DNA of 27,698 nucleotides from a virus. Each line of letters opens with the position of its first letter. The stretch's first letter is position 1. Of the stretch, positions 1,667-27,698 are shown one piece after another. Location of the stretch: IMG/VR virus record IMGVR_UViG_3300018420_000080, positions 1 through 27,698 of that record; one strand, written 5' to 3'. A program made the position numbers and the translations under genes. The notes below the pieces were generated by a model, which was given only the letters and a program-made list of their open reading frames with translations, had not been told where the DNA came from and ran no database searches.

Positions 1667-2064
1667 CCGAAGTCCTTCGATACCATCTGAAGCATCCTCA
1701 GAAGAAGCACCGCGACTGGCTCGCTAAGCTGAAAGAGGAGGGCATCAAGCGTAAGGAAGATTCACCCGATCCGAATCTTCCCAAGGTTTTGCCGGAGGGG
1801 GCATGGCTGTGGCGCTGTTTCGTACTGCTTAGTTCGCATAGAGCTTCATACGAAAACGGGCCACAGCCAATATCTCTATCCGACATATACGCTTTGGCGA
1901 ATATCGAAGGACTCGACGAAGCGGATTCTCGCTACCTTCTCGACGTAGTTCACGAACTGGATAACGTCTACCTTCAGGAGAGCTACGACAAGATCGCTAA
2001 GGATCGGGCTAAGGCTCAGAAGGGCAAGAATCAAGGTAGCGGGCGTGGTAGGGGGCGTCGTTAG
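1262..2064 (+). CDS. Tail assembly chaperone, -1 frameshift fusion (lambda gpGT-like)
   Basis: A -1 slip on G GGA AAC (1657-1663) bypasses the TAA at 1664 and enters the frame starting at CTA 1663, which is open to TAG 2062-2064. The fusion is 267 aa: 134 from the first frame plus 133 new residues beginning LTEVLRYHLKHPQKKHRDW. The T-like part contains GAWLWRCFVLLSSHRAS and a helical SRYLLDVVHELDNVYLQESY segment, then a basic tail (GKNQGSGRGRGRR). By analogy with lambda, the long form recruits the tape measure and tail-tube protein. A stand-alone start at TTG 1789 is possible but leaves 42 open codons unexplained and has no clear ribosome site. The stop overlaps the tape-measure GTG by one base. 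Confidence 0.8.
1657..1663 (+). promoter_or_regulatory. Programmed -1 ribosomal frameshift heptamer GGGAAAC
   Basis: In the zero frame the codons read gtG GGA AAC TAA, which is an exact X XXY YYZ slippery heptamer directly before the stop codon. Lambda G/GT uses GGGAAAG at the equivalent place. The -1 frame is open for 133 codons beyond it. Just downstream, 1668-1679 is a short palindrome (CGAAGTCCTTCG) that could form only a weak stem, so any structural stimulator is not obvious. Confidence 0.85.
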
Positions 2065-5000
2065 TGGCCGATCAACTAAGGATTGAGATCGACGTAACAG
2101 CAGCGAAAGCGGCGCTAGACGCCCTTTCGCAAAGCTTTACTACGTTCCAAGCCAACGCCACTACACAGACTGCTGGTGTCAGCAAAGTCATCTCCCGCCT
2201 TAACGAGCAGATGCGCAATATCCGCGCCATCGACTCGAACGTCCTCACGTCTCTCCAGCAGTTCAATACAGCGGTCCAGAACATACAGAGCGGCGCACTA
2301 AGCACGGCAGCCGATGCGTTGTCGCGCTTCAGTACGTCGTCTAGCGGCGTCCAGGTAACTGCTGAAGCAGTGAGGGCTCTAAGCCAGAACATTCAAGGTC
2401 TGCGTGCCCCGGAGGGGATCGACCGCATGAGCGTGTCGTTCCGCACCGCAGGTAACGCAGCTTCTCAGGCGGCGAAGCAGACCAGGGACTTCGCGGTAGC
2501 ACAGCGCAAGATCGAGAACGACATTCGCGGCATCGGTCGAGAGATCGCGAACACTGTCGGTTACATGCTCAATATGGGTGTGACGACGGGTAACCTTGCA
2601 CGTGCTATGTCAGACCTCGGTAAGCAGGGAATATCTCTAGGTCAGATATTCCAGGGTCTCCAGCGCAACTTCGGCAACTTTGGTGCGGTCACCGCTGTCC
2701 TTGGCGGCGTAGCCATCGGCCTGCGCGGTATCTACGAGGCCGCACAGCTTGTTCTCGGACCAGTGTTGCAGACCGGCATGGCGCTTCAGGCATTCGGGAC
2801 GGCAGTAGACGCCATCGACGGCAAGTCTGGCGCTGGTACGGCTGCACTGAGCGCTCTTAAGGATATCGCCGCTAAGACGGCTACTGACATCAACGTCTTG
2901 ACGAAGAACTACCTAGGTTTCCGCGCAGCGGCGGAGTCCACTGGTGTTTCGGCGGCAGACACTCTTAAGATTTACGAGGGCATCTCAGTCGGCCTCCGGG
3001 CGCTGAATAGAGACGCGATCAGCAGCGAGCGCGCGTTCACCGCGCTTACGCAGATGATGTCTAAGGGTACCGTCAACGCTGAAGAATTGAAGCAGCAGTT
3101 GGGTGACGCCCTCCCTGGCGCAGTGACCTACGCGGCACAGGCGATGGGGAAAACGACCGCAGAACTTCAGAAAATGATGGAGTCTGGCCAGCTACTAGCT
3201 AAAGACCTGCTACCACGCTTGTCCCAGCTCTTCCAGACTAAGTTCGGCGAGGCCGTGGCGACGCAGGCCCAGCTAGCTCAGGGACAGATCGCACAACTCG
3301 GTAACGCGATGACGTACCTTAGGGAGGCTATGGCGAACGGATTCAACGGCGGCGCGCTTGCTGGGTTCACACAAGGACTAAAGGCGCTGAACGAAGCTAT
3401 GAACAGCGCGTCTATCTTGGCGTTCGCCAAAGTTCTCGGCGATCTCATGGGCGTCATGCAGGCACTCGTCGGAGGCGTAATCGGAGGCTTCATCACCGGA
3501 TTCACCGCCATAGCTGACGCCATAGGACACGTCATAGAGAAGATCGTGGGGTTCATCCCTGGAGCGCAGGCTCTCGTTGACTGGTTCCAGAAGTCTGGCG
3601 GCGTTATGAACGTTGTCGCCTCTGTATCTAAAGTACTCGGTGCGGCCATTGGTGCGTTAGCTGCGCAGTATGTTCTCCTGAACGCAAAGGTGCTCCTCGC
3701 ATCTGCGGCTAAGACCGTGTATCAGGCGACCCTTGGCAGAACAGTGGCGATGCAGACAGCCGGAGCCGTCAGCACGGCGCGACTCACAACAGCACTCGGT
3801 GCGCAGACGGCGGCTGCGGCCACAGCGACTACAGCCACTACCGTGTTGAGCGCCGCTGTGGCTAGACTTAATACCGTCATCAAGGCTAACCCAATAGCGC
3901 TCGTTATCGCCGCGCTGGTTGGTCTAGGCTCAGTCATCTATGACGCTATCGGAGGTTGGGACGGACTCACTGCCAAGGTGGCCGCGTTCTCCGGTAGCAG
4001 CGTGGACGCGGCAGCCAAGACGGACACCGTGCAGCAGGCGTTGCAGAAGTTTGTAGATACGGCGGCGCAGACTCCAGAGAAGATCATCGCCAGTGCGAAC
4101 TCAATGTTCACCTTCACCGAGGCAGCTAAAGCCGCCAAGCAAGAGGTGCAGGCTATCGACATCCAGTTGAAGGATGTTAAGAACAGCATGGACGCGCATA
4201 AGATGGCGATTGACAGCGCGAAGAATAAGCAGGAACAATGGGTCGCTGGATTGAAGAGTGAGAAGCTGGCTTTGCAGTCACAACTCGCACAAGTACAGCA
4301 GTCTTCCAAGGAGTACAAGTCCCTCTTCGGCGCGCAGACTCTTGTATCGGATGGATCGGCAAGACTTAAGCAGCAGATTCAGGAAGTGTCCAGTCAGATC
4401 AACTCCTCTAACAATAACTTCCAGCAGTGGTCGTTGCGTCAGAAGGAGGGGTCGTTGAGTATGACTGAGCTTACGCAGAAGCTCAAGGAACAGAAACAAG
4501 CCATTCAGACATGGGGCGTCGTTCTGAATAAGAATGCCGACGATCTCGCGCGTCAACTTGTATCTCTCGGTAAAACGAAAGAGGAAGCCGCACAGATGGC
4601 TTTCTCTATCCAGGAGGCCACGAGGTCGTGGCAGGATCAGGCCGACGTTCTAGACAAAGCTGCGGATAGAAACGAGTTGCTTGCTCAGATTCTAATCAAG
4701 CAAGTGGACGCTGCTAAGCAAAACCTTGACGCCTTCCGCGAACACCGCAAGGAGAAGGGGCTAGACGCCGAGGAGACCGAGAGGCTTATAAAGGCGCAGA
4801 CTGACCTGTTAGCATCAACGGAGTCTGGCATATCGTCCGCTCTACAAGCGGCGGCTGCCCAGCGCACCGTGGCTACGGCGCTGCGCGAGGACATCTCTAT
4901 CAGGGAAGCTGCGAAGAAGGTCGCCGAGGACTTTGCTTCTAGGTACGGAAAGAACATTGAGGTAGCCGAGCTTGAAAAGAAAGCCCTAGAAGACCTCAAG

Positions 5001-6491
5001 AAGCAGATCACCGGTACCTCCGATGAGATGGCGAAAGCGGCAGGGAATGCAGATAAGTTGGCAGGTTCGTCTCAATCGACTGCCGAGAAAATCAAGGAAG
5101 CCAGCGAAGCTTCTGACAAGGCTAGCGGAAACGTCAAGAAAGTAAGCGACGCTATGGATCAAGCGTCGGGCACCTTCTCGGGAATTCGTGATACTCTCAG
5201 CGGAATCGCCTCATACTTTACTAAGGCGTCGGAGAGTGCGCACTCCCTCGGTTTGACGTTCCCACCCCTAGAAGCTAGCTTCGCGAGAATTGCTGAAGTC
5301 TTGCCGAACCTGAACGCAGGATTGACTCCGTTCAACGAAGCGTTCAGCCAGTTCGCTCAGAGCGCTGCGACCGCTGGTCCGCAGATGACTGTCCTCGCGC
5401 AGAGTTTCACGCAAATCTCTCAGGCAGTGCTAACATCATCTCAACCGATGGTGGCTTTCGCTGGTGCGCTGTCATCCATCCCGGAAACCGCTCCGGGTAT
5501 TGATATCGCCCGCGTATCTCTTGAACAGATGATCGCGTACCTTCGCGACTCTGCGGCGGATTTCGCCAGAGCTACGGAACAAATGTACGGACTAGCCGCG
5601 ACAGGAGCAGCGGTAAAGGACGGATTCGCTACAGCACAGGCGGGGACAGAGCAGTATATCGGCGTACTCAGTGACCTCCTATCGGCACTGGATACAGTCA
5701 TCCAGCGTATGAACGACCTCAAGCGCGCAGCGGAAGAGGCGCTGGCGGCTGCACAGGCCGCAGCGTCGGCTGGCGGAGGCACCACGGACGCTGGTTCTGG
5801 ACGCTACGGCGGTATGTCTGAAAGCCTGCCGGAGAAGATGAGCGTGCCCAGTGACGCCTTCAAGAACGCTCCGGCATTCGCGGAAGGTACAGCCAACACT
5901 TCGCGTCAGCTCAGCAAACTCCCTGGTGGTGGCATCCCATCGATACTTCACCCGAACGAGGCGGTTGTGCCGCTATCGCGCGGACGGCAGATTCCTGTGG
6001 ACATCCGCCTAGAGCCGGTTCAGATCGACACGTCTGGGACCATCGACGAGCGTCCGTTTGAGCAGATCGCGGATGGTCTTAACAAGCTCAACATGACGTT
6101 CAGTCGCGGGTTCTCAGCAGTCACCGCGAACAGCGGGCAGCAGACTAGTGACTTGACATCTCCTACCGTAGACGTTAACCTTAACGCTCCAGACATCCGT
6201 GGGTTCATGACCAACTTTGGGCGCAACTCAGCGGTTTCGGAGAATAGTTTCGTCGGGACGTTCGGCAACCCTGCCGACATGTCTTTCAACGCCTCTGCCC
6301 CCGGTGGACCGAACCGCCCGAACAATAGCGGAACTCAGACCGGAGACGGATCAACCACGAATAACCAGACTATCACCGTAACTATCAACCTGAACAGCGA
6401 AGACGTGGACGGCTTCAGACGGTCGGAGGACCAGATCGTGCGGAGCCTCGCCGACAAGATCAAGAGGGCGACACGCCGCGTCTCGTCATGA
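2064..6491 (+). CDS. Tape measure protein
   Basis: This encodes 1475 aa from GTG 2064, which shares its G with the TAG of the preceding gene. Residues about 240-415 match the phage tape-measure domain: a helical stretch containing MMSKGTVNAEELKQQLGDALPGA, its hallmark. Hydrophobic segments lie at about 450-510, 516-550 and 609-632; these are thought to help genome passage through the inner membrane. Long coiled-coil sequence follows (about 695-1000). The motif GIPSILHPNEAVVPLSRGR near 1290-1307 and the FRRSEDQIVRSLADKIKRA end are typical C-terminal tape-measure features. At roughly 0.15 nm per residue the tail would be about 220 nm long. It works with the upstream chaperones and fixes tail length. 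Confidence 0.92.
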   Translation: MADQLRIEIDVTAAKAALDALSQSFTTFQANATTQTAGVSKVISRLNEQMRNIRAIDSNVLTSLQQFNTAVQNIQSGALSTAADALSRFSTSSSGVQVTAEAVRALSQNIQGLRAPEGIDRMSVSFRTAGNAASQAAKQTRDFAVAQRKIENDIRGIGREIANTVGYMLNMGVTTGNLARAMSDLGKQGISLGQIFQGLQRNFGNFGAVTAVLGGVAIGLRGIYEAAQLVLGPVLQTGMALQAFGTAVDAIDGKSGAGTAALSALKDIAAKTATDINVLTKNYLGFRAAAESTGVSAADTLKIYEGISVGLRALNRDAISSERAFTALTQMMSKGTVNAEELKQQLGDALPGAVTYAAQAMGKTTAELQKMMESGQLLAKDLLPRLSQLFQTKFGEAVATQAQLAQGQIAQLGNAMTYLREAMANGFNGGALAGFTQGLKALNEAMNSASILAFAKVLGDLMGVMQALVGGVIGGFITGFTAIADAIGHVIEKIVGFIPGAQALVDWFQKSGGVMNVVASVSKVLGAAIGALAAQYVLLNAKVLLASAAKTVYQATLGRTVAMQTAGAVSTARLTTALGAQTAAAATATTATTVLSAAVARLNTVIKANPIALVIAALVGLGSVIYDAIGGWDGLTAKVAAFSGSSVDAAAKTDTVQQALQKFVDTAAQTPEKIIASANSMFTFTEAAKAAKQEVQAIDIQLKDVKNSMDAHKMAIDSAKNKQEQWVAGLKSEKLALQSQLAQVQQSSKEYKSLFGAQTLVSDGSARLKQQIQEVSSQINSSNNNFQQWSLRQKEGSLSMTELTQKLKEQKQAIQTWGVVLNKNADDLARQLVSLGKTKEEAAQMAFSIQEATRSWQDQADVLDKAADRNELLAQILIKQVDAAKQNLDAFREHRKEKGLDAEETERLIKAQTDLLASTESGISSALQAAAAQRTVATALREDISIREAAKKVAEDFASRYGKNIEVAELEKKALEDLKKQITGTSDEMAKAAGNADKLAGSSQSTAEKIKEASEASDKASGNVKKVSDAMDQASGTFSGIRDTLSGIASYFTKASESAHSLGLTFPPLEASFARIAEVLPNLNAGLTPFNEAFSQFAQSAATAGPQMTVLAQSFTQISQAVLTSSQPMVAFAGALSSIPETAPGIDIARVSLEQMIAYLRDSAADFARATEQMYGLAATGAAVKDGFATAQAGTEQYIGVLSDLLSALDTVIQRMNDLKRAAEEALAAAQAAASAGGGTTDAGSGRYGGMSESLPEKMSVPSDAFKNAPAFAEGTANTSRQLSKLPGGGIPSILHPNEAVVPLSRGRQIPVDIRLEPVQIDTSGTIDERPFEQIADGLNKLNMTFSRGFSAVTANSGQQTSDLTSPTVDVNLNAPDIRGFMTNFGRNSAVSENSFVGTFGNPADMSFNASAPGGPNRPNNSGTQTGDGSTTNNQTITVTINLNSEDVDGFRRSEDQIVRSLADKIKRATRRVSS

Positions 6492-6498
6492 TGACCAA

Positions 6499-9400
6499 AT
6501 GGCCCAATTTGTATGCGTACAGAGAAAGTCTGGTCCGTACTGTAGCGACAAACGGCTAGAGACGACAGACCCCGAGAAGAAGGACTGCATCAAGCGCGTC
6601 ATGCTTGAGTGCACGTCCGAGGTGTGGCAGTGCCGCAGCGACCTTCTCGCCGCTATGCCAGAGTTCATCCTATTCAGGCACGATTCCAGCAGTGGCGGGG
6701 CTAAGCCCATGGAGCCGCTGGATGACCTACAGTGCTACACGGACGCCTGCCTTGACCCGCTGCTAGAATGTTTCTGCACCGGTTTGTCAGGACTTACCTG
6801 TACGCTCTGTGACGACAACAACGGCTTCGACCCTGGTGGTGACGATGACGACCCGGATGTTATATACGAGGACGGCGGTGTCGTAGACTACAATCCGATA
6901 ACGTTCTCAGATACAAGCGCGTACATCCCAATAGTGTTCGGAACCGTGCTTCTCGGTGCGAATATTATCTGGATATCCGAGCCTAGCTATGACGACGAGG
7001 AGCGCCCCACCATAAACTTCGCCGTGGGTATTTGTGAAGGGGTCGTTGACCGCGTTACAAAGATGTGGATTGGAGCAGACTTGGTGCTCGATACAACATC
7101 GACCTCCGCTATCATCTCTCCGCTGGTCGCTGAATACGACTTTTCTGTCAAGACTTTTTCTGGGTCTAATACTCAAAAGGTTGCCCCCGAGATGCTGACC
7201 TCCTTCGGGCGCAACGTCGGCTATCGGGGTCTGGCGGTCGTCTACATTGAAAACTATCCGATTACTGGGGTGGAGAATACCATGCCCGAGATCAGGCTGG
7301 AAGTTTCCACCGGATCGTCTGGTGGTACTGTGGCCTGGGAGGACACGACGATAGTGACGGACGCGACGGCTACCGTTGTGAGTCCCTATTCGCGTCGCTT
7401 CGTAACATCCAATGCTACGTCCATTGAGTTGCGCAAGGAGACTGGAGAAGTTCTGTGGCAGGATACCGTTGACATCAACACAGCGTCCATCCGGCTATCT
7501 CCGTACGACGACCTCGGTTACCAGGAGGATGCCGGGACGCTCGTATGGCGAGGTGGTATCGACAGAAACGAGAAGTCATCTCTCATGGTGGGGTATGTCG
7601 CTGACGAAGTTGGTGTCGGGCGTATCCCTGACTTTCTGAGCGACACCCGCGTCATCGGTACATCCGACAGTAACACGCTACGGGTATACGCGGCGAAGGA
7701 CAACAACGCAGCCCTATCGTTGATCTCATCAAACACTAATAGTTCGCTGACGACTTATAAGTTCTTCGACATCGTTGACATCGCCGAAGGCGCATTCGAA
7801 TTCGCGCCGACAACGCGCGCTCTCGGTATCGGACAAGAGTCCTCTGGCGACCTGCACCTGGACTGGTATGATGTCAAGACGGCCCCGCTTCCGTCAACGT
7901 TGATCGACGACGGCAACTGGGAAACGTTCTCATTGTCCTTATCAGCTTGGGGGTTGACCGACACCGCGACGCTGCTGAACGCCGCGTGGCTCAGACAAAT
8001 ATCCAGCGCGGTGCTATTCTTCGACGACGCCGGAACGTATAAAGCAGTGCTAGTCGATACCGCTTCCCCGCTTACTCCGACGTGGGTAACGACAGTACCT
8101 ACGTCACCGACTGGGAAGTTGAACCCACGCTCGTTCGGGGAATACTTCGAATACGTGGCTGGCAGTATAATCTACTCTCTACGGCTAGAAGACGGTGAAC
8201 TGAAGACGGTGTACGATATCGCTGAAGACGGCGCACCGGCTTACGGCGGGATGCAGTACTTCGATCCGCATATTCGTGTGTTGACTTACGTATCTGCTTT
8301 CGGAAAGGTGACCTATTCTCGCCCAGGGCGTGCTGTGGGCGAGGCTGTTACCTTGGCCAGTATCGTCCGTTCTCTCGCCACTCGCGCGGGATTAGACGAC
8401 ACGCAGTATGACGTGTCCAACCTCGAATCCATAACGGTGGACGGATTCGCTATAACGGATCAGGCGAGCGCCGCTGGAGCGATAAGCCAGCTATCGGAGT
8501 TCTATCACTTGGGTCTCGTCGAAGCTTCGCGAGGAGTACGTGTTATCCCGCTAACGGCGGCAAGTTCAACGGTTATCGATGACGATTCCCACGCGCAGAG
8601 TTTCAAGTCACGGCGTTACACAGACCGCCTGGACGACATAAACTTCGTTCGAGTCCTGTACTTCGACAAGAACAAGGAACACGCCGTGTCCTATCAGGAC
8701 GTGTACCGTGATATCATCTTGGGCGAGGAACAGGGCGACATCGGAAACGGCATCACCATCGATATAAAAGTGTTCACGGATGCGCTCACTGCGCGCCTGT
8801 CCGCTGAGATGGAGATGATGAAGCGTCTTCAGAACGTCCGTGAGTATCAGACTATTCTCGGACCGCGTTATCTGGCGATAGAGCCGCTGGACTTCGTTAC
8901 AATGTCCAACGGAGAGACGGCACGCGTCGAGAAGTTCACCGTAGACTCGACCCTTAAGTCATCCTTCACAGCGGTCAAGGACGACACGTCACTATATAGC
9001 GAGGTTCCAGCCCTCAGTGCGATTGACTTCGGGACGTACTCGTCAACGATGCCGTACAGCTCCAAGATAACGAATATGCCGGTAGTCATCAGCACGCCCC
9101 CTGCGCGCGACGGACATAACGGTGAGCGGGTGTGGATTGGACAATTCAACCCTGAGACATCGACGTTCGGTGACGGGTTCGCGGCAAGTCCTGTATACTG
9201 GAATGATCCAGCAAACGGACCGCGTAAGCGGACTGCCGCCACGCAAGAGGCGATCATAGGGACGCTAGTCAGCGGACTCGACCAGTTCTCCACTGCACAG
9301 TTCAGCACAGATCGAACGAACGAGGTCGTCATAAAGTTCGCTAAAGACATTCCTGTCGGCACGTTCTCTGACGCCACATATGACGAGCTTCTGGCAGACT

Positions 9401-10185
9401 ACACGACCAACCTCCTCGTGGTCGGCAAAGAGCAGATACAGTTCATGTCGCACAGTATCGACGTGGACAACCGCACGGTCACGTTCACTGGACTGTTCCG
9501 TGGGAAGTTCGGAACTGAGTGGTACATGCGTAGGCACCAAGTCGGAGAACTGTGCGCGTACTACACGCCGCAGTCTTTCACGTGGACGGATATGACTACG
9601 TACCCAGGCCAACTCGAAGAGGTGTCGATTTCTTTGGCGTCGCCGACGATATCCTCCATACGGCGTACTGATCGGAGAGCATACTCGTCCCTCCGTGAGG
9701 AGTGGTACGGTGGTATTTTCGTCTACAAGGACCACCCTCTACGGGCTTTCTACAAGCACTGGCCGCGTGTCCCCTTCCGCAACACGCTGACGGACAGTTC
9801 GCAGATAGAAGGTATAATGCACGGAGAGATTCTGAGAATCTTCTTCTTGTCGAGTCAATTCGACAGGCAACAGTTCGAGACGGCATGGGAGGAGGGACCG
9901 GGGCATCCGTACTTCAAGTTAGCGATCCCATACTCCGACTACAAGCAGGGGTTCAGTTACGAGATAGACATGACCCTAGAGACAAGCACGCTGTACTCTC
10001 TGGGATACATCGACAACCCGAGCGTGCAGAGTTGGAAACTGATAGCGCCTATGTATATGGCCGTTGTTAAGGGTCTGAACTACAAGAGAGCGACTGGACA
10101 CTATCTGCCAGCAGGGACGCAGTTCAGAATCCAGAACGGCGCGTTCTACGATGTCAAATTCGGAGTAACACACAGTGTCTTCTGA
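6499..10185 (+). CDS. GTA megatron-type tail tip protein, paralogue 1 of 3
   Basis: This encodes 1228 aa from ATG 6499, 7 nt after the tape-measure stop; no good ribosome site is visible. Domains in order: a Cys-rich helical N-terminus (11 Cys in about 105 residues, ending ECFCTGLSGLTCTLC); a Gly/Asp linker; a core starting IPIVFGTVLLGANIIWI (GANIIWI near 152-158) with the VGICEG signature (176-181) and the segment YRGLAVVYIENYPITG; a propeller-like insertion about 277-610 (GEVLWQ, GSIIYSLRLEDG); a Phage-tail_3-like domain about 615-780 (ATRAGLDD ... ITVDGFAITDQ); and the megatron C-terminal signature GLFRGKFGTE (998-1007). In GTAs this protein sits at the tail tip below the hub and contacts the host. 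The C-terminal 150 residues are unlike anything I recognise. Confidence 0.8.
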   Translation: MAQFVCVQRKSGPYCSDKRLETTDPEKKDCIKRVMLECTSEVWQCRSDLLAAMPEFILFRHDSSSGGAKPMEPLDDLQCYTDACLDPLLECFCTGLSGLTCTLCDDNNGFDPGGDDDDPDVIYEDGGVVDYNPITFSDTSAYIPIVFGTVLLGANIIWISEPSYDDEERPTINFAVGICEGVVDRVTKMWIGADLVLDTTSTSAIISPLVAEYDFSVKTFSGSNTQKVAPEMLTSFGRNVGYRGLAVVYIENYPITGVENTMPEIRLEVSTGSSGGTVAWEDTTIVTDATATVVSPYSRRFVTSNATSIELRKETGEVLWQDTVDINTASIRLSPYDDLGYQEDAGTLVWRGGIDRNEKSSLMVGYVADEVGVGRIPDFLSDTRVIGTSDSNTLRVYAAKDNNAALSLISSNTNSSLTTYKFFDIVDIAEGAFEFAPTTRALGIGQESSGDLHLDWYDVKTAPLPSTLIDDGNWETFSLSLSAWGLTDTATLLNAAWLRQISSAVLFFDDAGTYKAVLVDTASPLTPTWVTTVPTSPTGKLNPRSFGEYFEYVAGSIIYSLRLEDGELKTVYDIAEDGAPAYGGMQYFDPHIRVLTYVSAFGKVTYSRPGRAVGEAVTLASIVRSLATRAGLDDTQYDVSNLESITVDGFAITDQASAAGAISQLSEFYHLGLVEASRGVRVIPLTAASSTVIDDDSHAQSFKSRRYTDRLDDINFVRVLYFDKNKEHAVSYQDVYRDIILGEEQGDIGNGITIDIKVFTDALTARLSAEMEMMKRLQNVREYQTILGPRYLAIEPLDFVTMSNGETARVEKFTVDSTLKSSFTAVKDDTSLYSEVPALSAIDFGTYSSTMPYSSKITNMPVVISTPPARDGHNGERVWIGQFNPETSTFGDGFAASPVYWNDPANGPRKRTAATQEAIIGTLVSGLDQFSTAQFSTDRTNEVVIKFAKDIPVGTFSDATYDELLADYTTNLLVVGKEQIQFMSHSIDVDNRTVTFTGLFRGKFGTEWYMRRHQVGELCAYYTPQSFTWTDMTTYPGQLEEVSISLASPTISSIRRTDRRAYSSLREEWYGGIFVYKDHPLRAFYKHWPRVPFRNTLTDSSQIEGIMHGEILRIFFLSSQFDRQQFETAWEEGPGHPYFKLAIPYSDYKQGFSYEIDMTLETSTLYSLGYIDNPSVQSWKLIAPMYMAVVKGLNYKRATGHYLPAGTQFRIQNGAFYDVKFGVTHSVF

Positions 10186-13100
10186 AGAACAGTGCAAGGT
10201 GCCTGGGGATAGCTGCTCTCGCGGCGGTACAGGTCCGACTTGTTCGCAGAACCCAGAGATCGGGGCTGCCAACAAGAAGGAATGTCTTGAGGAGGCCAAG
10301 GAGTACTGCGAAGAGGCCCTTAAGAAGTGCATCGAAGAGTGCGACAAAGAGAAGGAGGAGGGACTCGCCACCGGCATGGACGGGCAGACCTCGCTCATCG
10401 ACGGTATATTTACGCCCAGCGAAGCTTACGAGAACTCTGATTCGATCCAGCGGACTAACATCTACGGATACGGCGATAGTTCCTACTTCAGAGGACCCAC
10501 ACCAGACGGTAACCGCGACTTCCACAACATTCTGGCAGACCATACCCTCTGCATGCGGGACTGCTACTATCAGGCCGCTTCTGATTGCAGTACGGTTCAG
10601 TGCTACTGTAACTCTCTCAAGTGTGACGTTGACAGTGGGCCACCAGGAGGAGACGGTGGGAGGGGAGAAGACGAGTTCGACCGTGTGTACAAGACAGATC
10701 GTCTTGGCGAGGTCGAGTTCAGCACGAACTCCCAATACGGGGGCCTGATAGAGTTGGTATACACCCGCGCCTACATGCCGGGTAACATCATCTGGATAAG
10801 TGACGTATACCCGGATAGGAAGGAAACCACTTACTCTACCACTGACCCTGAGACGAAGACGATAACGATACGGACAGCGGTCAGCATCAGCAATAAGGTA
10901 GCGATGCACATCGGACTTTGCGCTGGTGAGATTTCTGACATCATGTCAATCCGCGTTGACGGCTCTTTGCTTTATGACCGGAACGACCCATCCTACGCCG
11001 CGTTCGAGGACACCTTCGAACTCATGCGCGGAGCGAGAACGCAGAAAGCGCGTCAAGCGATTGCCGAGGAGTTCGGTTTCGGACGGGCTCCGGCCTTCCG
11101 TGGGCTCAGTTATCTTGTTTTGGGGGATTTCGAACTCAGCGGGTTTACGCAGTTTCCGAAGTTCTCCATAGAAGTAGTCAAGAGCGCGAAGAGAGAAACC
11201 GCTAACTTCGACGGAGCTGCCATCCCCGGTAAGGATTCTGCTATCGTTTGGACCGTCTCGCCGGAAGCTAAACGGGCATATGCGGAATCCTCTGGCGGAG
11301 TTATGTGCCTGGACACGGACAGTCTCACACAGGTGTGGGACAAGCCGGTGGCGAATCCGATTGAGGTTACACCTCTAGGCCGTGTCGTCACCTACGACGG
11401 CGTGAATATAGGTGTTTACGACTCAGCGTTTGAGCAGACTTACGGCAGTTATCTGGCGTCGCTGCCGATATCTCAGAGTTTCATGTTCCGTACGCCGGAT
11501 ATGACAGGGAATTCGTCCCTGACTCTTATAACGCAGTCTGGTGATGGAAACGCCATAGCTGAAGAGATAGGAGAGGTGATTCCGCAATTCCCTGCCGACA
11601 GCGTGTCGATACGAGAATTGAGCGGACTCGATACCGACGTTCACGATGTCGCGGTAGAATCGTACAATTATACGGCACAAGCGGCAGGTATCTCGGCCTT
11701 CCAGCGCTCCATATACCTACTCCGTGTCCACGCTGGAACGTTCGACACAATCCGCGTGAGGGAGCTTAGACTCATCGGAGCCGCTTCAGACTTCCTACTT
11801 GAGAACGAAGAGTGGTATGAATATGACCTACCGTTGTTGACATTCAACAACTCTCACTCCCTAGTCTTGCTTGGGGCGATTCCGCACGCCAGCGGAGGGT
11901 TCGTCGTGTTCACTGTGGACAACGCTGGCTACCGAGCCGTATATTGGAAGAACGATGCAGTACAGTGGTCGGAGACGATCACCGCCGCTCCGGGGTTTGG
12001 TAAGTACGCACCAGTTGACGTGCCGGTATCCAACTATTTCTTCTACATCTACGGTTCTACGGTGTATAGGCTCAACGTCAACACCGGAGAGCAGGCTGCG
12101 TGGCCGCTGACTAGCATACCCGCGTCACTAGACGGTAAGCAATTCTACTTCTCGAAGGCGAAGACGATCTTCTACGAGAGCGCTGGTGGAAAACTATCCA
12201 AAATCGTCCTAGAACAGTTCTCCACGACCAACGAGACGGTTGGAGATGTCGCGCGTGACCTCACAGCTCGTCTCGGGCTGTCCGTGACTGATTTCGACTA
12301 CACTGACATCGACACGATAGAGGTAACAGGCTTTCGATCTGGAAGTTATCAGACAGCCGCAGAGATCATGCAGGCCCTCGCTGACATCTACCAATTCACC
12401 TTCTCGGCGAATGAGCGGATCAGCTTCTCTGCCCTGTCAACTGACACCGCTATAATCATTGACGCGAATGACGTGCTAACCGAGTCTCCGTTGTCCAGAA
12501 CTTCGGTCAATAAAGAGGATAGAACGGTCCGCGTATCCTACTTCAGCGTCCCGTTGTTCGGGGAGATCGTGGACCAGACTTTCACGTTCGACCACACGGC
12601 TGAAAGAACGCTATTCGGCGCAGACGCCACCTACAGTTGGCCCGTCCTTGAGACAGACCTGTTCATGCGACAGTTGGCGGAAAGACTGGCCTACAAGGGT
12701 GAACAGACAAGTCGCGGACAGACGCTAACACTCCCCCCTCGATATCTCAGTTTGACGCCGGGGGACACGCTAGTTATGGACCCGATCAACCGCGCACACA
12801 GAGTAACTGTTGGGGCAGACCTTACAATTGAGCTTGAGATCGAAGAGGATGATCCCTCCAAGTACAGCGAAGAAGTGCCCTTGTCGGCACAGGAGGTGAT
12901 CAGCCGTAGAAGGTCCATAGATGAGACGACGTTGACACTGGGAGGCCCTATGGCTGTCTCCACTAGGGGAATATTCCCCGTGCGAGTACAGTCCTCCTGC
13001 GTCTACGCTGGCGTCTCCAACATCGACGAAGCCTATGACGCGCCCACCACGATAGCGCCAACGAATTCGATGATCGACTACGTGCCGTCTGGTCCCGTAC

Positions 13101-14083
13101 TGAAGACCTATAACTCGATGATGTGGGGCAGACTCTCGGCGCTTCCTGCCACGCACCCAACGGCGCGGTTCAAAACATTTGTGGACGATTCATTAAAGAT
13201 CGTGTTCGCAGATCAGGAAATGGCTGACCGCGTGTTGCAGAAGGTTAGCCACTATGGTAAAGTCCCAGATCGGCGCACAGTCGATCCTTACTACAACACG
13301 CTCGTCGTCGGTAAGGAAATCATCCAGTACGGCTACGCTGTTGGACAGGTGGGCGTGTCTAAGGAGGTGACGTTCAATAACTTGATCAGGAACCTGCACC
13401 TGACAGAGCAGTTCGCGGATCAGCATGTCATCGGGGAAGTGTGCGTTGTAGTCGATCCCGCGACGTGTGCTGACTATGAGGTCTCTGCGGAGAATCTTGG
13501 ACAGACGTTTAAGCTATTCACATATGCTAGAGGGACGGACCGTCGCCGCTTCGACGCATACGTTGAAGAGGACGTGCTCCTACCGATTGATCCAGGATAC
13601 GTTATGCGCCTGGATCGCCTGTCGGCCTTTACGGTCAATGCCTCATTCGGGGCGCGGGATACGCTGGTTTACTTCCGCATGCGCAATGGTCGGAACAGCG
13701 GCTTCGATGTGGACAGCGCCGATCAGGGACTATCAACGTACGACATGCTCGGGAACAAGAGTATATATCTCCTCCGCGCCGACTACGACGAGGCGCTGTT
13801 CGACGCCGAGCGCTACGGAACGTCAAGAGACTATATCTTCGCAAGATCGGACCCAATATTCGTCAGACAGGATGTCGGGTCCAGAGAACGTTACTACCTA
13901 ACCTCTGGATGGGAGTTCACTTATGGTTCGCCAACAACGTATGAAGTCATCTGGGATGACCTCACAGAGCCTCTTGTCGTCGTACTGATCACCACAAACG
14001 AGTACGGCGAGACTCGCGCCGTATATAAATTCCCCCCAGGGGATTACACTGACCGCCCAACGAGAGGGCTGAGAGTACTATGA
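10175..14083 (+). CDS. GTA megatron-type tail tip protein, paralogue 2 of 3
   Basis: This encodes 1302 aa from GTG 10175, overlapping the previous gene by 11 nt, with GGAG at 10162-10165. It has the same architecture as its neighbours. The Cys-rich N-terminus has 13 Cys, including a helical KKECLEEAKEYCEEALKKC run and QCYCNSLKC, and is followed by a Gly/Asp-rich linker. The core has GNIIWI at 203-208 and IGLCAGE at 246-252. The propeller-like insertion (about 345-685) includes VYRLNVNTGEQAAWPL. A Phage-tail_3-like region starts near 690 (ARDLTARLGLSVTDFDYTDI). The C-terminal signature is degenerate: LIRNLHLTE (1070-1078) lacks the RG..GT seen in the other two. It is probably a tail tip subunit assembling with the flanking paralogues. 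Confidence 0.78.
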   Translation: MSSEEQCKVPGDSCSRGGTGPTCSQNPEIGAANKKECLEEAKEYCEEALKKCIEECDKEKEEGLATGMDGQTSLIDGIFTPSEAYENSDSIQRTNIYGYGDSSYFRGPTPDGNRDFHNILADHTLCMRDCYYQAASDCSTVQCYCNSLKCDVDSGPPGGDGGRGEDEFDRVYKTDRLGEVEFSTNSQYGGLIELVYTRAYMPGNIIWISDVYPDRKETTYSTTDPETKTITIRTAVSISNKVAMHIGLCAGEISDIMSIRVDGSLLYDRNDPSYAAFEDTFELMRGARTQKARQAIAEEFGFGRAPAFRGLSYLVLGDFELSGFTQFPKFSIEVVKSAKRETANFDGAAIPGKDSAIVWTVSPEAKRAYAESSGGVMCLDTDSLTQVWDKPVANPIEVTPLGRVVTYDGVNIGVYDSAFEQTYGSYLASLPISQSFMFRTPDMTGNSSLTLITQSGDGNAIAEEIGEVIPQFPADSVSIRELSGLDTDVHDVAVESYNYTAQAAGISAFQRSIYLLRVHAGTFDTIRVRELRLIGAASDFLLENEEWYEYDLPLLTFNNSHSLVLLGAIPHASGGFVVFTVDNAGYRAVYWKNDAVQWSETITAAPGFGKYAPVDVPVSNYFFYIYGSTVYRLNVNTGEQAAWPLTSIPASLDGKQFYFSKAKTIFYESAGGKLSKIVLEQFSTTNETVGDVARDLTARLGLSVTDFDYTDIDTIEVTGFRSGSYQTAAEIMQALADIYQFTFSANERISFSALSTDTAIIIDANDVLTESPLSRTSVNKEDRTVRVSYFSVPLFGEIVDQTFTFDHTAERTLFGADATYSWPVLETDLFMRQLAERLAYKGEQTSRGQTLTLPPRYLSLTPGDTLVMDPINRAHRVTVGADLTIELEIEEDDPSKYSEEVPLSAQEVISRRRSIDETTLTLGGPMAVSTRGIFPVRVQSSCVYAGVSNIDEAYDAPTTIAPTNSMIDYVPSGPVLKTYNSMMWGRLSALPATHPTARFKTFVDDSLKIVFADQEMADRVLQKVSHYGKVPDRRTVDPYYNTLVVGKEIIQYGYAVGQVGVSKEVTFNNLIRNLHLTEQFADQHVIGEVCVVVDPATCADYEVSAENLGQTFKLFTYARGTDRRRFDAYVEEDVLLPIDPGYVMRLDRLSAFTVNASFGARDTLVYFRMRNGRNSGFDVDSADQGLSTYDMLGNKSIYLLRADYDEALFDAERYGTSRDYIFARSDPIFVRQDVGSRERYYLTSGWEFTYGSPTTYEVIWDDLTEPLVVVLITTNEYGETRAVYKFPPGDYTDRPTRGLRVL

Positions 14084-17000
14084 GCAGGTTTGGCGAGACA
14101 GGGACAGAGAACTACGGCTACGGGCCGAAGCTCACTTCTGACGCTATGGGTATCAAAGGGGAAAGCTCCAACGTGCTGGAGTGGACCACTGACGCGCAAG
14201 AGATGGTGGAAAAGCTGTTCGCTGGAACGGAGTCGGACGGTAAGGGCAAGTACGCAGAGCACTGCGAGGACCTTAAGGGGGAGATCAAGGGGCACGGCCC
14301 TGAATGTTCGCCTATACCTGAGGTAGGTCAAAGTGATCTGACGGAGTGCTTCTACGTCAACACTCTCGACTGTATCGAAGGGTGGCGTACGGGAGTGTTC
14401 GATAGCACCCGCCGATTCATCGACATCTACATCCAGAACTCTGAACTTCGTCGCGATTACGACAGCGGATTCCCTCGCTACGGAAACGACGAGGGGGGTA
14501 GTTACTACGGAAAAACACAGTCTCTCGAACCAGAGCGAGAGGTGTACGATGACATCAAGGATCAGTTCGAGGCGTGCCTTGAAGACATCGTGAATATATG
14601 CGAATGCAAGCATTGTCAGTCGGGAACCCTCGGTGAGGACGACGAAGATGATGATGACGGTGGGGATGATGACGAGGACGATGACATCGATGTACCTGGG
14701 CTGACCCCCAACTACGAAGATTTAGAAACATCGTCGTCGTTCAACATCATCCCGCGCGTTTGGGGCCGCTACGTCGTTGGCGGAAACATCATATGGATAG
14801 GTAATCAGCGGAACATCCTCAGCAGCGTAACATACGAACTTCCTACAGGTCGTAAGACGGCTGAGACCTACAACAACTATATCGACATGCTCGTCGGCCT
14901 CTGCGTCGGGGAGATGGACGGTATCGTTCGCGTGTGGCTGGGCGATTACCTGCTCTATAACGATTTGCTGTTCCTCGAAGCCATCGGAGAATCCACAGAC
15001 GACTTCAGCAGCGCCGCTGCGGCGAATAACTCATTCGACTTGTCCGCACTTGAGGCAGACAAACCCATTATCAGGTTCTTCCGAGGATCAGCCGCCCAGC
15101 ACGTCTACTCGGCAGCGGCAGAAGAGAACGGGTTTGGTCGAGTGCCTGCCTACAGGAATCTTTGCTATCTTCGCCTTGATAATATCAACCTAAATTACTT
15201 CGACGGAAAGTTCCCGGATTTGCGCATAGAGGTGGCCTCCCTTTTGGAGAACGACTACAGGTATCTCGAAAGCGACAACGCCTACACTATCGATGAAGAG
15301 CGCTTGGCCGTCGAGCCGCGAACGGGACAGATGTTCGTTACCGAGGGAGGTGACGTAACTGTCTTTGACTGGGACACGATGGAGGAGCGCTGGGGTGTCC
15401 CGTATGCTCCATCGACCGACCACTTCGTGGCGCTGGAATCTGGGTATCCGCTGCACTTCCTCCCGTTCGCTACTCACTACGAAGAGGCACGTGTATACGA
15501 TCAGACATTCGTGTCTCGTATCATAGACAACGATGAGAATCCCACAGGAGATAAGGTAGGAATCTCCGCTCACAGCGGCAAGCCGCTATTCGTGGCAACA
15601 CGGAGATTCAGCGTCGAGGACGCCAAGGGGTATGATCGCGTCTACTACACGACGGAGGCTGATTACGTTAAGTATATCGACTATGACTACACGGACGAGA
15701 CGCTGACTCCAAACGACGATTTTGAGTATCCGCGCCAGTACGTCGGCACAGGAGATGTCGTCGAGAATGCGATGTATCACAGCGCGGATGGCTCGTACTA
15801 TATCCAGTTTCGCGTTGACGCCGCTTCCGCCACGGCGCTCGACATCTGCAAGTTCAAGGTGGCAGGGGACGATGGCTCATTCCTCAGCGAGTTGACTGGT
15901 GCCGAGTTCTCGCTGACAAGCGTTCCTTCCACCGATATATGGGGAGCGGATACTACAGGTATCAAGATCATTCAGGCGGTGAACGTCGCCAGCGACAACA
16001 CGATATTGTTGTTCATTCGTCAGGAAACGTCGGGTGTGTACCGTCTGACGAAGATTGATCCATCGGACATGTCTGTCGTGTGGAACTCCACCATACCCTA
16101 CGCGATAGATACGTGGGGTAAGTTCGGCAACCCGGTGGCTTCGCGTTCCGCTTCGAATACGTTGTATTTCCTGACCGTTAGCGGAGTCGTCCTATACGTC
16201 GATCTGTCTGATGGAGTCGTGTACGAAGAAGGGTCGCTAAGCTACTTCGGCTGGCCGTCTTATGCTTCGGGCGGAGCGCAGTATTACGACGGGCGGACTC
16301 GTTCGCTTACATATGTGACGACAGCGAACACTATCGCGCGTATATTCTTCAACCGCGTGAATCCTCTACGTATTCCGCTGAACACCATCATCGACGATAT
16401 CGCAGGAGCTTCCCCCCTTACGGCGGATATCGTGGATGGGCGTGCACTGAGCGCAGTAACCGTTGCTGGCTACGCTATTACCGAATCGACATCTGTCAGT
16501 AAGTTCCTGACAGAAGTCATCGACTTCTACCAACTAGCGGTTTTTGATGATGGTTCAGAGATAGTACTAGCGCCTAAGTCTGACCTCCCGTCCGTGGTGT
16601 CGCTGGACCCGTCCATGGACATCATTGCTGACACTATAAATAGAGGATCGCTGAACCAGGGGGCTCTCCCTGATTCTATCCGAGTGGCGTTCGTGACGAT
16701 AGACTCCACAGGGCTCGTCCAGCAGGTCCAGGAACTATCAGTTCGCGGGGAGGATGAAGAAGATGTATATCAAGCAACCAAAGTCAGCGAATACGATCTA
16801 CGCGTAAACGAGGACCCGGCCATTATGCGCCTTTACGCGGAACAGGCGCTCATTGCTTCGCGGTCGGAGAAGACGACAATGGGTGCCGCGCTCATGCCTC
16901 GGAAGATAGGAGTCACTACACAAGACCAAGTATCGCTGTATGGCGTGACATACCGCGTGACTGGGACGTTCTTGTCTCCAGACAACATGACGGAGATCAC

Positions 17001-18231
17001 TGCGGCCAAGTTCTCGGTGGACGACTTCGCCACACAGGTGTCCATTTCAAGCGCTACCGTGCACAACGCTGTAGCCACGAACAGAGTCATTCGGTCCGGT
17101 GTTTACCGCCCTGTGGCTTTGTTCACTAATGCGCTATCAAACGATGCTGCGCTGCGCTCTACGAGCGGAAGGCAGATAGCGTACGTTGCGGTGGAAGCTG
17201 GCACAGCGGATATCCCATCAACACGCGTCCAGGTGCGGGTCCAGGAGCACCAAGGAGTTGTCCCTGACAGACTCGACGCGGAGTACGCCTACTACTATTA
17301 CACTGTACCTTCTTCCAATCTCTACACGTCGGCGTCGATCAACAAGGCGGCACACTTCGGCGTCACGTTGAACAGTCCGCATGGTCACAGCGAGCGGCAG
17401 ACCCCGTGGACCTCTAACGAAGATGACTATGTTGTCGTACAGTTTGCTAGAGACGATACGATAGATTACATCCAGACATTGAACAGCTATGATTATCCTA
17501 GCTACGAAGTTCTGGAGACGGAGACGGAAAACCTTCTCATCATCGGACGAGAGTACATCAAGTTCGGTAAATACACCGTTGGCGCGAATAGGGAAGTACT
17601 GTTCGAGAACCTGATTCGTGGATACCTTGGAACGTCTTCGTACATGGCACACGAAGACGGTGAGCGCGCATACCTGTATAGTGCCGACACGATCAAGGAG
17701 ATCAGCCTGGAGTCTCACTACACCAAGCGCGGTGCCAGGGCTAAGGTGTTCGTGGCGCAGACGGCTCCAGCAGGGACTCTGCCGCAGTATTTCTACCCGG
17801 AGGCGGACGCCGGGTCAGCGCGTCCGTGGCCTCCAGTTCTTGCTGAAGTCGTCGCCATCGACGGAGACGAGTCTCGCCTTACTGTTCGTGTCAACCGGCA
17901 GCATCCGCTGTTCTTCGACGTACTCGGTGTAGGCGGGGATATTGCGGACATCTGGGGATCAGACGAATATTACATAAAGGAAGTAAGTTCTTCTGACTTC
18001 ACCTGGGACGACGATCAGTACGCGGTGAACCTAGCCGGGTGGCAGCTATTAACTCTAGAAGACGACGGAGGACCCTTCCTGGACTTCGAGGTAGAGATGG
18101 CCTCGCAGCACACGAGAGCGTACGTCTTGGTCTCTCACGTTGCCAGAGACGGCAAAGGGGAGCCGGTAACCGGGCACCCGCTTAGAATCCGCATCGCTGG
18201 TGGACTCACTGACACCTACAACACGGCTTGA
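14080..18231 (+). CDS. GTA megatron-type tail tip protein, paralogue 3 of 3
   Basis: This encodes 1383 aa from ATG 14080 in an ATGA overlap with the previous stop. The N-terminus (about 1-180) has 8 Cys, ending ICECKHC, and is followed by a strongly acidic D/E/G tract at about 185-207. The core shows GNIIWI at 235-240 and VGLCVGE at 272-278, then GFGRVPAYRNLCYLRLDNIN. A propeller-like insertion spans about 395-765, and a Phage-tail_3-like domain begins near 767 (ALSAVTVAGYAITESTS). The C-terminal signature is LIRGYLGTS (1178-1186). The tail ends with beta-rich sequence I do not recognise. This is the longest of the three; its stop overlaps a promoter for the next operon. Homology within the trio is clear; the division of labour is inference. 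Confidence 0.8.
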   Translation: MSRFGETGTENYGYGPKLTSDAMGIKGESSNVLEWTTDAQEMVEKLFAGTESDGKGKYAEHCEDLKGEIKGHGPECSPIPEVGQSDLTECFYVNTLDCIEGWRTGVFDSTRRFIDIYIQNSELRRDYDSGFPRYGNDEGGSYYGKTQSLEPEREVYDDIKDQFEACLEDIVNICECKHCQSGTLGEDDEDDDDGGDDDEDDDIDVPGLTPNYEDLETSSSFNIIPRVWGRYVVGGNIIWIGNQRNILSSVTYELPTGRKTAETYNNYIDMLVGLCVGEMDGIVRVWLGDYLLYNDLLFLEAIGESTDDFSSAAAANNSFDLSALEADKPIIRFFRGSAAQHVYSAAAEENGFGRVPAYRNLCYLRLDNINLNYFDGKFPDLRIEVASLLENDYRYLESDNAYTIDEERLAVEPRTGQMFVTEGGDVTVFDWDTMEERWGVPYAPSTDHFVALESGYPLHFLPFATHYEEARVYDQTFVSRIIDNDENPTGDKVGISAHSGKPLFVATRRFSVEDAKGYDRVYYTTEADYVKYIDYDYTDETLTPNDDFEYPRQYVGTGDVVENAMYHSADGSYYIQFRVDAASATALDICKFKVAGDDGSFLSELTGAEFSLTSVPSTDIWGADTTGIKIIQAVNVASDNTILLFIRQETSGVYRLTKIDPSDMSVVWNSTIPYAIDTWGKFGNPVASRSASNTLYFLTVSGVVLYVDLSDGVVYEEGSLSYFGWPSYASGGAQYYDGRTRSLTYVTTANTIARIFFNRVNPLRIPLNTIIDDIAGASPLTADIVDGRALSAVTVAGYAITESTSVSKFLTEVIDFYQLAVFDDGSEIVLAPKSDLPSVVSLDPSMDIIADTINRGSLNQGALPDSIRVAFVTIDSTGLVQQVQELSVRGEDEEDVYQATKVSEYDLRVNEDPAIMRLYAEQALIASRSEKTTMGAALMPRKIGVTTQDQVSLYGVTYRVTGTFLSPDNMTEITAAKFSVDDFATQVSISSATVHNAVATNRVIRSGVYRPVALFTNALSNDAALRSTSGRQIAYVAVEAGTADIPSTRVQVRVQEHQGVVPDRLDAEYAYYYYTVPSSNLYTSASINKAAHFGVTLNSPHGHSERQTPWTSNEDDYVVVQFARDDTIDYIQTLNSYDYPSYEVLETETENLLIIGREYIKFGKYTVGANREVLFENLIRGYLGTSSYMAHEDGERAYLYSADTIKEISLESHYTKRGARAKVFVAQTAPAGTLPQYFYPEADAGSARPWPPVLAEVVAIDGDESRLTVRVNRQHPLFFDVLGVGGDIADIWGSDEYYIKEVSSSDFTWDDDQYAVNLAGWQLLTLEDDGGPFLDFEVEMASQHTRAYVLVSHVARDGKGEPVTGHPLRIRIAGGLTDTYNTA

Positions 18232-18288: not shown

Positions 18289-18918
18289 ATGGTCGCCTTT
18301 ATCGAGGAAAGATTCCCCTCAGACATCAGCTATGGTTCAAGCGGCGGTCCGAGCTTCAGTACGACCGTTTATGAAGCCTTGTCTGGTTACGAGCAGCGGA
18401 ACATGAACTGGCAAGATGCTCGCTGCGTCTACGACGTATCGCACGGTATCCGCGACAAGGCGGACATGGAAACCGTTCTCAACTTCTTCTACGCCGTTCG
18501 CGGTAAAGCTATCGGGTTCCGTTATAAGGACTGGGGTGATTACACGCTCTCTCAGGAACTCATCGGCACAGGCGACGGCTCTACCGTTGCTTTTCAGATC
18601 ACAAAGACGTACGCCGCTGGTGTGCAGGAGTACGTGCGGACGATTCGAAAGATCGTCACGCCTGTCGTCGGTCCTCCCGCTATCGTGTTCGAAGTCTACG
18701 TGAACGATGTCCTCCAAGGCAGCGGTTATACAGCGAACTACAACACAGGTGTCATCACGTTCGACGTTGCACCCGCTGCGGCTGCAACGATCAAAGTTAC
18801 GTGCGAGTTCGACGTGCCCGTGCGCTTTGACACAGACGAGATGCAAATCACGGAAGAGGCGTGGGAACTCGAAACATGGGATTCGATCCCTCTCATCGAG
18901 ATTAGGACTACAGCGTAA
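18289..18918 (+). CDS. DUF2460 distal tail protein (GTA g12-like)
   Basis: This encodes 209 aa from ATG 18289, with AGGA at 18276-18279. The whole length follows DUF2460 (TIGR02217): FIEERFPSDISYGSSGGPSF at the N-terminus, SGYEQRNMNWQDARCVYDVS, the FFYAVRGKAIGFRYKDWGDY segment, IGTGDGSTVAFQITKTY, YNTGVITFDVAP, and FDVPVRFDTDEM at the C-terminus. The size is normal for the family. In GTAs and related phages this protein forms the ring that joins the tail tube to the hub. Its stop overlaps the DUF2163 start (TAATG), matching the g12-g13 pairing in GTAs. Confidence 0.92.
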   Translation: MVAFIEERFPSDISYGSSGGPSFSTTVYEALSGYEQRNMNWQDARCVYDVSHGIRDKADMETVLNFFYAVRGKAIGFRYKDWGDYTLSQELIGTGDGSTVAFQITKTYAAGVQEYVRTIRKIVTPVVGPPAIVFEVYVNDVLQGSGYTANYNTGVITFDVAPAAAATIKVTCEFDVPVRFDTDEMQITEEAWELETWDSIPLIEIRTTA

Positions 18919-27142: not shown

Positions 27143-27153
27143 GGTAGCCCGCC

Positions 27154-27698
27154 GTGGCCGCAAGGATTTACAAGCAATCTGCTGCGGTCGTCACCCGGTA
27201 CAAGACGGGAGGACGCCTGAACAAGCAAACTGCTTCGGTTGTCGTCGGGCCGAAGGAGGCGGTGCACGTCTACGCTGGCGGTGTCACTGCGGTGGTGGGT
27301 CCCCCGACTGGTATTAATTGTCTACAGGCTGGTATTGTCACGGTGCTCGCTCCTGCACCGACTACGGCGGTCACATATCAATATAACGGGTATGCTGTTG
27401 TCCTCCCAGCAGGGAGCGTAACGCAGTACAATGGCTATGGCGTCCTGTACCCGCCGACGAACCCTGCGGTGGCTTACCAGTATAACGCCTATGCTGTTCT
27501 GAACGAATCCGCCAACGTGTTCGCGTACAACGGGTATGCTCTCCTACAGCCAACGTCTGTAGTAGAGAAGATGGCGGGGTACGCGGCGGTGTCTCCGCAA
27601 CCTGTTGTCAACTATAAGACCGCCGCTTATGTCGTCATGAGCACACGCTCGCGTGCGTACCAGTACGATGGTTACGCGGTTATGGACCCTCCTCCTCC
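27154..27698 (+). CDS. YNGYAV-repeat protein (partial, runs off window)
   Basis: The frame is open from GTG 27154 to the end, 181 codons; the 3' end is missing. No strong ribosome site precedes the GTG, and the gap from the previous stop is 11 nt. The visible protein is almost entirely about eleven repeats at 15-18-residue spacing, with the core Y-N-G-Y-A-V-(V/L) then a Pro-containing loop, for example YQYNGYAVVLP, QYNGYGVLYPP, YQYNAYAVLN, FAYNGYALLQP and YQYDGYAVMDP. Earlier copies (KQSAAVV, KQTASVVVGP, AGGVTAVVGPP) are more degenerate. Alternating hydrophobic and small residues suggest a beta-strand stack. Function unknown; a fibre or surface protein would fit. Confidence 0.6.
   Translation, partial: MAARIYKQSAAVVTRYKTGGRLNKQTASVVVGPKEAVHVYAGGVTAVVGPPTGINCLQAGIVTVLAPAPTTAVTYQYNGYAVVLPAGSVTQYNGYGVLYPPTNPAVAYQYNAYAVLNESANVFAYNGYALLQPTSVVEKMAGYAAVSPQPVVNYKTAAYVVMSTRSRAYQYDGYAVMDPPP

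Follow-up and report, generated by a model that had tools for sequence, protein, structure and literature searches.

The tail-tip genes described here lie in a 27.7-kb window from a virus collection (IMG/VR record IMGVR_UViG_3300018420_000080, positions 1 to 27,698), in which all genes of the siphophage tail module are on the + strand. Three consecutive genes of this module, named here M1 (6499..10185, 1228 amino acids (aa)), M2 (10175..14083, 1302 aa) and M3 (14080..18231, 1383 aa), were confirmed by sequence comparison as near full-length paralogues of the megatron, the tail-tip protein of the Rhodobacter gene transfer agent (RcGTA). Since a related virus has kept all three side by side, they probably serve as fixed and specialised components of a single injection machine and not as spares, and we put the probability that they are specialised subunits required together in one virion at about 0.75. 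The solved megatron tips, those of RcGTA and roseophage R4C, contain three identical megatrons, and a preserved ancient trio makes the transition from homomer to heteromer in an injection device directly testable.

A first-pass annotation of the window had proposed three adjacent megatron-like open reading frames (ORFs) of these lengths, and our results bear this out, as the frames are open from end to end and are paralogous by blastp (M1/M2 E=1.9e-30, M1/M3 4.9e-32, M2/M3 2.0e-20; identity 21-27%). A profile made from the trio only had two matches in the Protein Data Bank, the megatrons of RcGTA (6tba, E=1.4e-15) and R4C (8gtc, 1.5e-6). In the other direction, a profile from 12 known megatrons only recovered M1 at 7.5e-59, M3 at 2.8e-47 and M2 at 6.4e-45, while at E<=10 it matched none of the other 13 window proteins and none of 300 shuffled copies of the trio. 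Orthologues turned up on two viral contigs, L015 and L027, in scans that used alignments of the trio and of its adhesin domains. When each orthologue pair (window plus L015 or L027) was made into a profile and aligned to the same 12 megatrons, the match covered nearly all of each paralogue past its N-terminal region (M1 133-1028, M2 181-1159, M3 219-1275; E 6.5e-40 to 2.5e-32).

Recognition by single Pfam families is uneven. The search with PF13550 (Phage-tail_3) and the C-terminal family of the gene transfer agent protein g15 (PF23666, Rcc01698_C), which had been suggested as a check, succeeded for M1, the only one to pass both cut-offs (1.2e-6 and 1e-8; it also matches phrog_4271), but not for the other two: M2 reaches 22.2 bits against the 23-bit cut-off of PF13550, 0.8 bit short, and lacks PF23666, and M3 has no PF13550 match and a weak one to PF23666 (17 against 27 bits). 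Routine annotation could therefore miss both M2 and M3. No TIM barrel (GTA_TIM, PF13547) was matched by Pfam in M1-M3, nor in the tested megatrons of CcrColossus, XM05 and Mwe-JY26. Foldseek with a model of M3 returned the RcGTA megatron first, followed by the T5 and DT57C tip proteins, and with a model of M1 beta-propellers and RcGTA; these matches only agree with the sequence evidence.

Past the N-terminus, the domain order is that of the RcGTA megatron. M1 starts with a Cys-rich region standing where the iris/penetration helix would be (residues 1-112, 6499..6834; 11 Cys, 10 of them conserved in L015), followed by an acidic linker seen in the sequence (residues 113-132, 6835..6894) and an adhesin-like domain (residues 133-272, 6895..7314; NIIWI at 155-159) with a profile match to the RcGTA megatron from residue 53 on. 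The peripheral region (residues 273-612, 7315..8334; from model and alignment) is the least conserved large part between orthologues (36%) and would hold the propeller-like insertion of the first-pass annotation, which is plausible, as residues ~440-570, the best stretch of the M1 model (block pLDDT mostly 66-83), match beta-propellers, albeit at low TM-scores. The Pfam-defined central domain (Phage-tail_3, residues 613-810, 8335..8928) has a counterpart that binds the distal tail protein in RcGTA (PMC7296036), and the C-terminal part (8929..10182) comprises Rcc01698_C by Pfam (residues 918-1017) and then a presumed fibre-binding region. In M2 the corresponding features are the Cys-rich region (residues 1-155, 10175..10639; 13 Cys, all kept in L027), the adhesin-like domain (10721..11200; GNIIWI, LCAGE) and the central domain (12233..12814), placed by its sub-threshold Phage-tail_3 match and by profile-profile alignment. 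In M3 they are the Cys-rich region (residues 1-182, 14080..14625; 8 Cys, all kept in L027) with an acidic run after it, the adhesin-like domain (14698..15243; GNIIWI, LCVGE) and a central-domain equivalent (16345..16959), placed through M1 and profile-profile alignment. The motifs previously assigned to all three thus read as described in M2 and M3, but M1 has GANIIWI and ICEGV, and the (G)L(F/I)R signature, though present, is not at the C-terminal end and lies within or beside the PF23666 region, ~190-230 residues before the C-terminus. The C-terminal regions are very divergent between paralogues (13-19%; peripheral and C-terminal regions together 13-23%).

All three copies go back to an old triplication and have been retained. 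L015 carries M1 residues 1-732 with the tape measure and chaperone genes, and L027 has the same order as the window, with 54% identity in the C-terminal part of M1, 57.5% in M2, 56% in M3, 80% in the distal tail protein and 79% in the hub. The two contigs come from one metagenome and may be parts of one phage. Orthologues are 47-58% identical (M1 47-55%, M2 58%, M3 56%) against 21-27% for paralogues. In the phylogeny, copies from the window and from L015/L027 fall into an M1, an M2 and an M3 clade, each supported at 100/100; the stems measure 1.4-2.0 and are much longer than the tips (0.3-0.5). These deep clades, together with the orthologue identities, show an old triplication kept 1:1:1, which strongly supports the first-pass view of specialised subunits as opposed to a recent duplication. 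The trio as a whole is a single clade (100/100) separate from all other megatrons, although its deeper placement is unsure given the long stems.

Both gene junctions are conserved as well. M2 starts with GTG within the end of M1, giving an 11-nt overlap, and M3 overlaps M2 by ATGA; both overlaps are present in L027, the M2 start context being GTGTCTTCTGA in the window and GTGTCTTCTAG in L027. Synonymous sites are saturated in all genes, beyond the use of dN/dS, while the proteins are still 46-80% identical, so selection has acted on all three copies ever since the two phages diverged, and as the M1, M2 and M3 pairs are similarly constrained none of them looks like a decaying spare. It could be argued that a single working copy has been accompanied by others persisting by chance, for the megatron gene has undergone several independent tandem duplications. 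This is very improbable and already disfavoured by the three intact genes, their 47-58% identity to orthologues despite synonymous saturation and the conserved order and overlaps.

The most distinctive trait of the trio is at the N-termini. The stretch before the NIIW-like motif is 152-235 residues long in M1-M3 and the L015 orthologue, with 8-13 Cys and a charge of -16 to -36; in ten phage megatrons already known, and in those of full length on contigs L016 and L018, it has 52-81 residues, no Cys and a charge of 0 to +4. In those relatives this segment usually has the Gly-rich hydrophobic stretch that is the iris/penetration segment of RcGTA; the hydrophobic helix is absent from M1-M3 and the L015 orthologue, and the start codons of M1-M3 cannot be moved far enough upstream to conceal one. 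The Cys-rich domain of the first-pass annotation is therefore real, and its location in place of the iris helix is a point that annotation had not made. Between orthologues 31/32 N-terminal cysteines are conserved, with P ~8e-8 given the regional identity, a value that ignores the generally above-average conservation of Cys, and six Cys columns are invariant across all six proteins, near a G-P-x-C motif and a C-x7-C pair. That iris loss might be unique to this phage was considered and rejected, since the megatrons of Alteromonas R7M (R7M_40) and Xanthomonas Langgrundblatt (BL10045) also start almost at the adhesin domain without it; judging from the sequences, the distinctive trait is the Cys-rich replacement and not the loss itself.

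How the three proteins could share one tip is best seen against the known structures. The tips of RcGTA and R4C have three megatrons below the hub, with central domains on the distal tail protein, adhesin domains around the channel and N-terminal helices closing it, and only these three are on the axis (PMC7296036, PMC10276861). The window, with homologues of the distal tail protein (DUF2460) and hub (PF09931/PF09356) encoded beside the trio, is predicted to encode an RcGTA-like tip of a distal-tail ring, a hub trimer and a megatron trimer. On this view an ancient triplication of a single ancestral megatron gene would have been followed by divergence into three subunits that are produced together, all of them needed in each virion and most likely in one heterotrimer. 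The domains with which the RcGTA megatron binds the distal tail and lines the channel are present in M1, M2 and M3 alike, and only three such places exist; we infer from this that the three co-assemble on the hub, and we give a single 1:1:1 heterotrimer about even odds. Their central domains would seat them on the hub and distal tail. At the site that the three iris helices occupy in the RcGTA channel, the hydrophilic, acidic, Cys-rich N-terminal regions would come together, and they might there build a plug, stabilised by disulphides or metal, which receptor binding would open. A different partner, either receptor-binding or a fibre, would be bound by each of the divergent peripheral and C-terminal regions. 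The strongest version of this proposal, a non-symmetric tip in which an obligate 1:1:1 heterotrimer has a cross-linked Cys-rich channel plug in place of the membrane-penetrating iris and three receptor or fibre inputs open one gate, is put forward tentatively and seems doubtful in its entirety. The substitution nevertheless offers a test of how general membrane penetration by the iris helix is, a generality doubted earlier in the T5 structure paper (PMC10038345).

The same evidence bears on a different arrangement, three homotrimers in one virion, with M1 as the canonical tip and two more trimers below or around it as accessory layers. M1 is the closest to known megatrons and the sole one passing both Pfam cut-offs, the divergence of the C-terminal regions would be in keeping with different placements, and arrays of two copies elsewhere show that copy number is not tied to three. 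We consider this arrangement unlikely, because all three paralogues keep the adhesin and central domains whereas one trimer only fits at the channel and distal-tail contacts of RcGTA, and because M2 and M3 have been no freer to change than M1 (58% and 56% against 47-55%). The first-pass annotation had also raised three alternative tips, in which any of the three would form a trimer and the virion population would be mixed in receptor range. The most variable parts are indeed the peripheral and C-terminal regions, which bind receptors and fibres in RcGTA and R4C (PMC7296036, PMC10276861), and four fibre-like paralogues lie downstream. Interchangeable subunits, however, should share similar N-termini, and these differ in length (112, 155 and 182 aa) and cysteine content (11, 13 and 8). 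The genes are also coupled by overlaps in a single array; direct repeats are absent, and the only inverted pair is weak (22 nt, 82%) and flanks no gene. This makes alternative tips quite improbable. A phase-variation or diversity-generating switch was rejected for want of supporting repeats.

Several points weigh against the proposed heterotrimer, and foremost among them are the two-copy arrays of CcrColossus, Kikimora and XM05. They are the main argument against reading three genes as a stoichiometry: the 1:1:1 logic leaves them unexplained, and phages with two megatron genes show that a threefold axis does not require a matching number of genes. The comparison behind the retention argument covers one related phage lineage, on two contigs of one metagenome. 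The N-terminal regions, compared by themselves, show marginal homology (hhalign E 0.004-0.2; shuffle z 3.0-4.7), so that it is chiefly the cysteines and their position that support the pattern shared by these regions. M3 has no Pfam match of its own to the central domain, and the AlphaFold2 monomer models are poor (pLDDT 41 for M1 and 37 for M3) and unusable for interfaces.

With respect to how common such arrays are, a search of 50,697 phage records with a typical megatron matched at 152 places, spread over 123 records; among the matches listed (60 of the 123 records), two megatrons per record was the maximum. Two-copy arrays were present in CcrColossus-like and Brevundimonas jumbo phages and in Erythrobacter XM05. 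Among 82 fetched loci with megatron-like ORFs, three consecutive full-range megatrons occurred in L027 only (M2 and M3 complete, M1 truncated where the contig ends) and two megatron genes in four Caulobacter records. Scans of viral contigs with the single proteins M3, M1 and distal tail found nothing, two scans of bacterial and archaeal genomes likewise found nothing, and a plasmid search gave one weak match. Within these collections and at this search sensitivity, two-copy arrays were already known and a three-copy array was not found outside the window and L027. The separate clade of the trio (100/100) shows that it does not come from the same duplication as the Dolichocephalovirinae and XM05 pairs. 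A scan with an assembly-chaperone alignment was set aside, since the genes after the tape measure on its contigs either resemble lambda J-like tail fibres or have no match, and none matches a megatron. Eight contigs (L016:4615-5250, L017:9173-9808, and also L036, L039, L045, L046, L048 and L049) have an ORF of ~206-212 aa with the iris and adhesin part only, directly preceding a second ORF that repeats that domain in a full or split megatron, and these short ORFs look by sequence like a different, truncated kind of megatron paralogy. In Xanthomonas phage Langgrundblatt1 (L025:5007-9066, BL10045-BL10047) the megatron is split, with the adhesin part in BL10045 and the rest in BL10047, and the gene between them has no megatron match.

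The remaining genes of the module, in order on the + strand, are fibre-like genes, tail assembly chaperone genes, the tape measure (2064..6491; PF20155, E=1.2e-26), the trio, the distal tail protein (DUF2460, 18289..18918; match to RcGTA Rcc01695, E=3.9e-40), the hub (PF09931 and PF09356, 18918..21077; match to the RcGTA hub at 6.8e-24) and further fibre-like genes. The megatrons thus stand between tape measure and distal tail, whereas the usual order is tape measure, distal tail, hub, peptidase, megatron. The hub has a large central insertion, and its cysteines 153, 162, 680 and 687, which align with those of relatives, are likely iron-sulphur (Fe-S) ligands. No NlpC/P60 gene adjoins the hub in the window; a CHAP-domain protein (7.4e-6) with a C-terminal hydrophobic segment is encoded among head-tail genes of the related phage (L015:1681-2313). 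The two chaperone ORFs (1262-2064, P0009 and P0010) match the front and back parts of phrog_8233, respectively, so a programmed frameshift is likely. Downstream of the tip, P0012 (22348-23112, 254 aa) has no Pfam or PHROG match and in part resembles a Hint/intein-type domain by eye. It is followed by four tandem paralogues of 324-342 aa (P0013-P0016, 23149-27142; phrog_6368, unknown function; pairs 1e-18 to 1e-48), possibly a second expanded family of lectin-like fibre or surface proteins, and by an open repetitive frame (27143-27698, YQYNGYAV-like repeats) apparently running past the contig end.

One of the named systems closest to the trio is the RcGTA megatron Rcc01698 (g15; PDB 6tba), with adhesin-like, central and C-terminal domains in equal order and homologues of hub Rcc01696 and distal tail Rcc01695 nearby. 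RcGTA differs in having one gene, a homotrimer, an iris/penetration helix and a TIM barrel, where the window has three genes with Cys-rich acidic N-termini and no TIM-barrel match, and in the order distal tail, hub, peptidase, megatron, where the window has its megatrons before the distal tail and no NlpC/P60 gene beside the hub. The R4C megatron (PDB 8gtc) is of the same domain family with extra peripheral carbohydrate-binding parts but, unlike the trio, is encoded by a single gene and forms a homotrimer with iris helices (PMC10276861). Adjacent full-length paralogues also occur in the Dolichocephalovirinae CcrColossus (gp122/gp123) and Kikimora (03420/03410), the duplication in Colossus having been reported previously (PMC3556154), though there as two copies, 38-59% identical in matching parts, with ordinary Cys-free N-termini and canonical gene order. 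Erythrobacter phage XM05 likewise has full-length megatrons close together (gp70/gp68), but these are two copies, 50% identical, with a 244-aa gene between them, from an independent, younger duplication. For the proposed stoichiometry there is a parallel in an unrelated phage, mycobacteriophage Mysterious, in which three adjacent baseplate genes (gp35/36/37) give a 1:1:1 heterotrimer (PMC13252515); unlike the trio, these are small beta-sandwich accessory proteins, and their six heterotrimers stand around the baseplate and do not form the axial tip.

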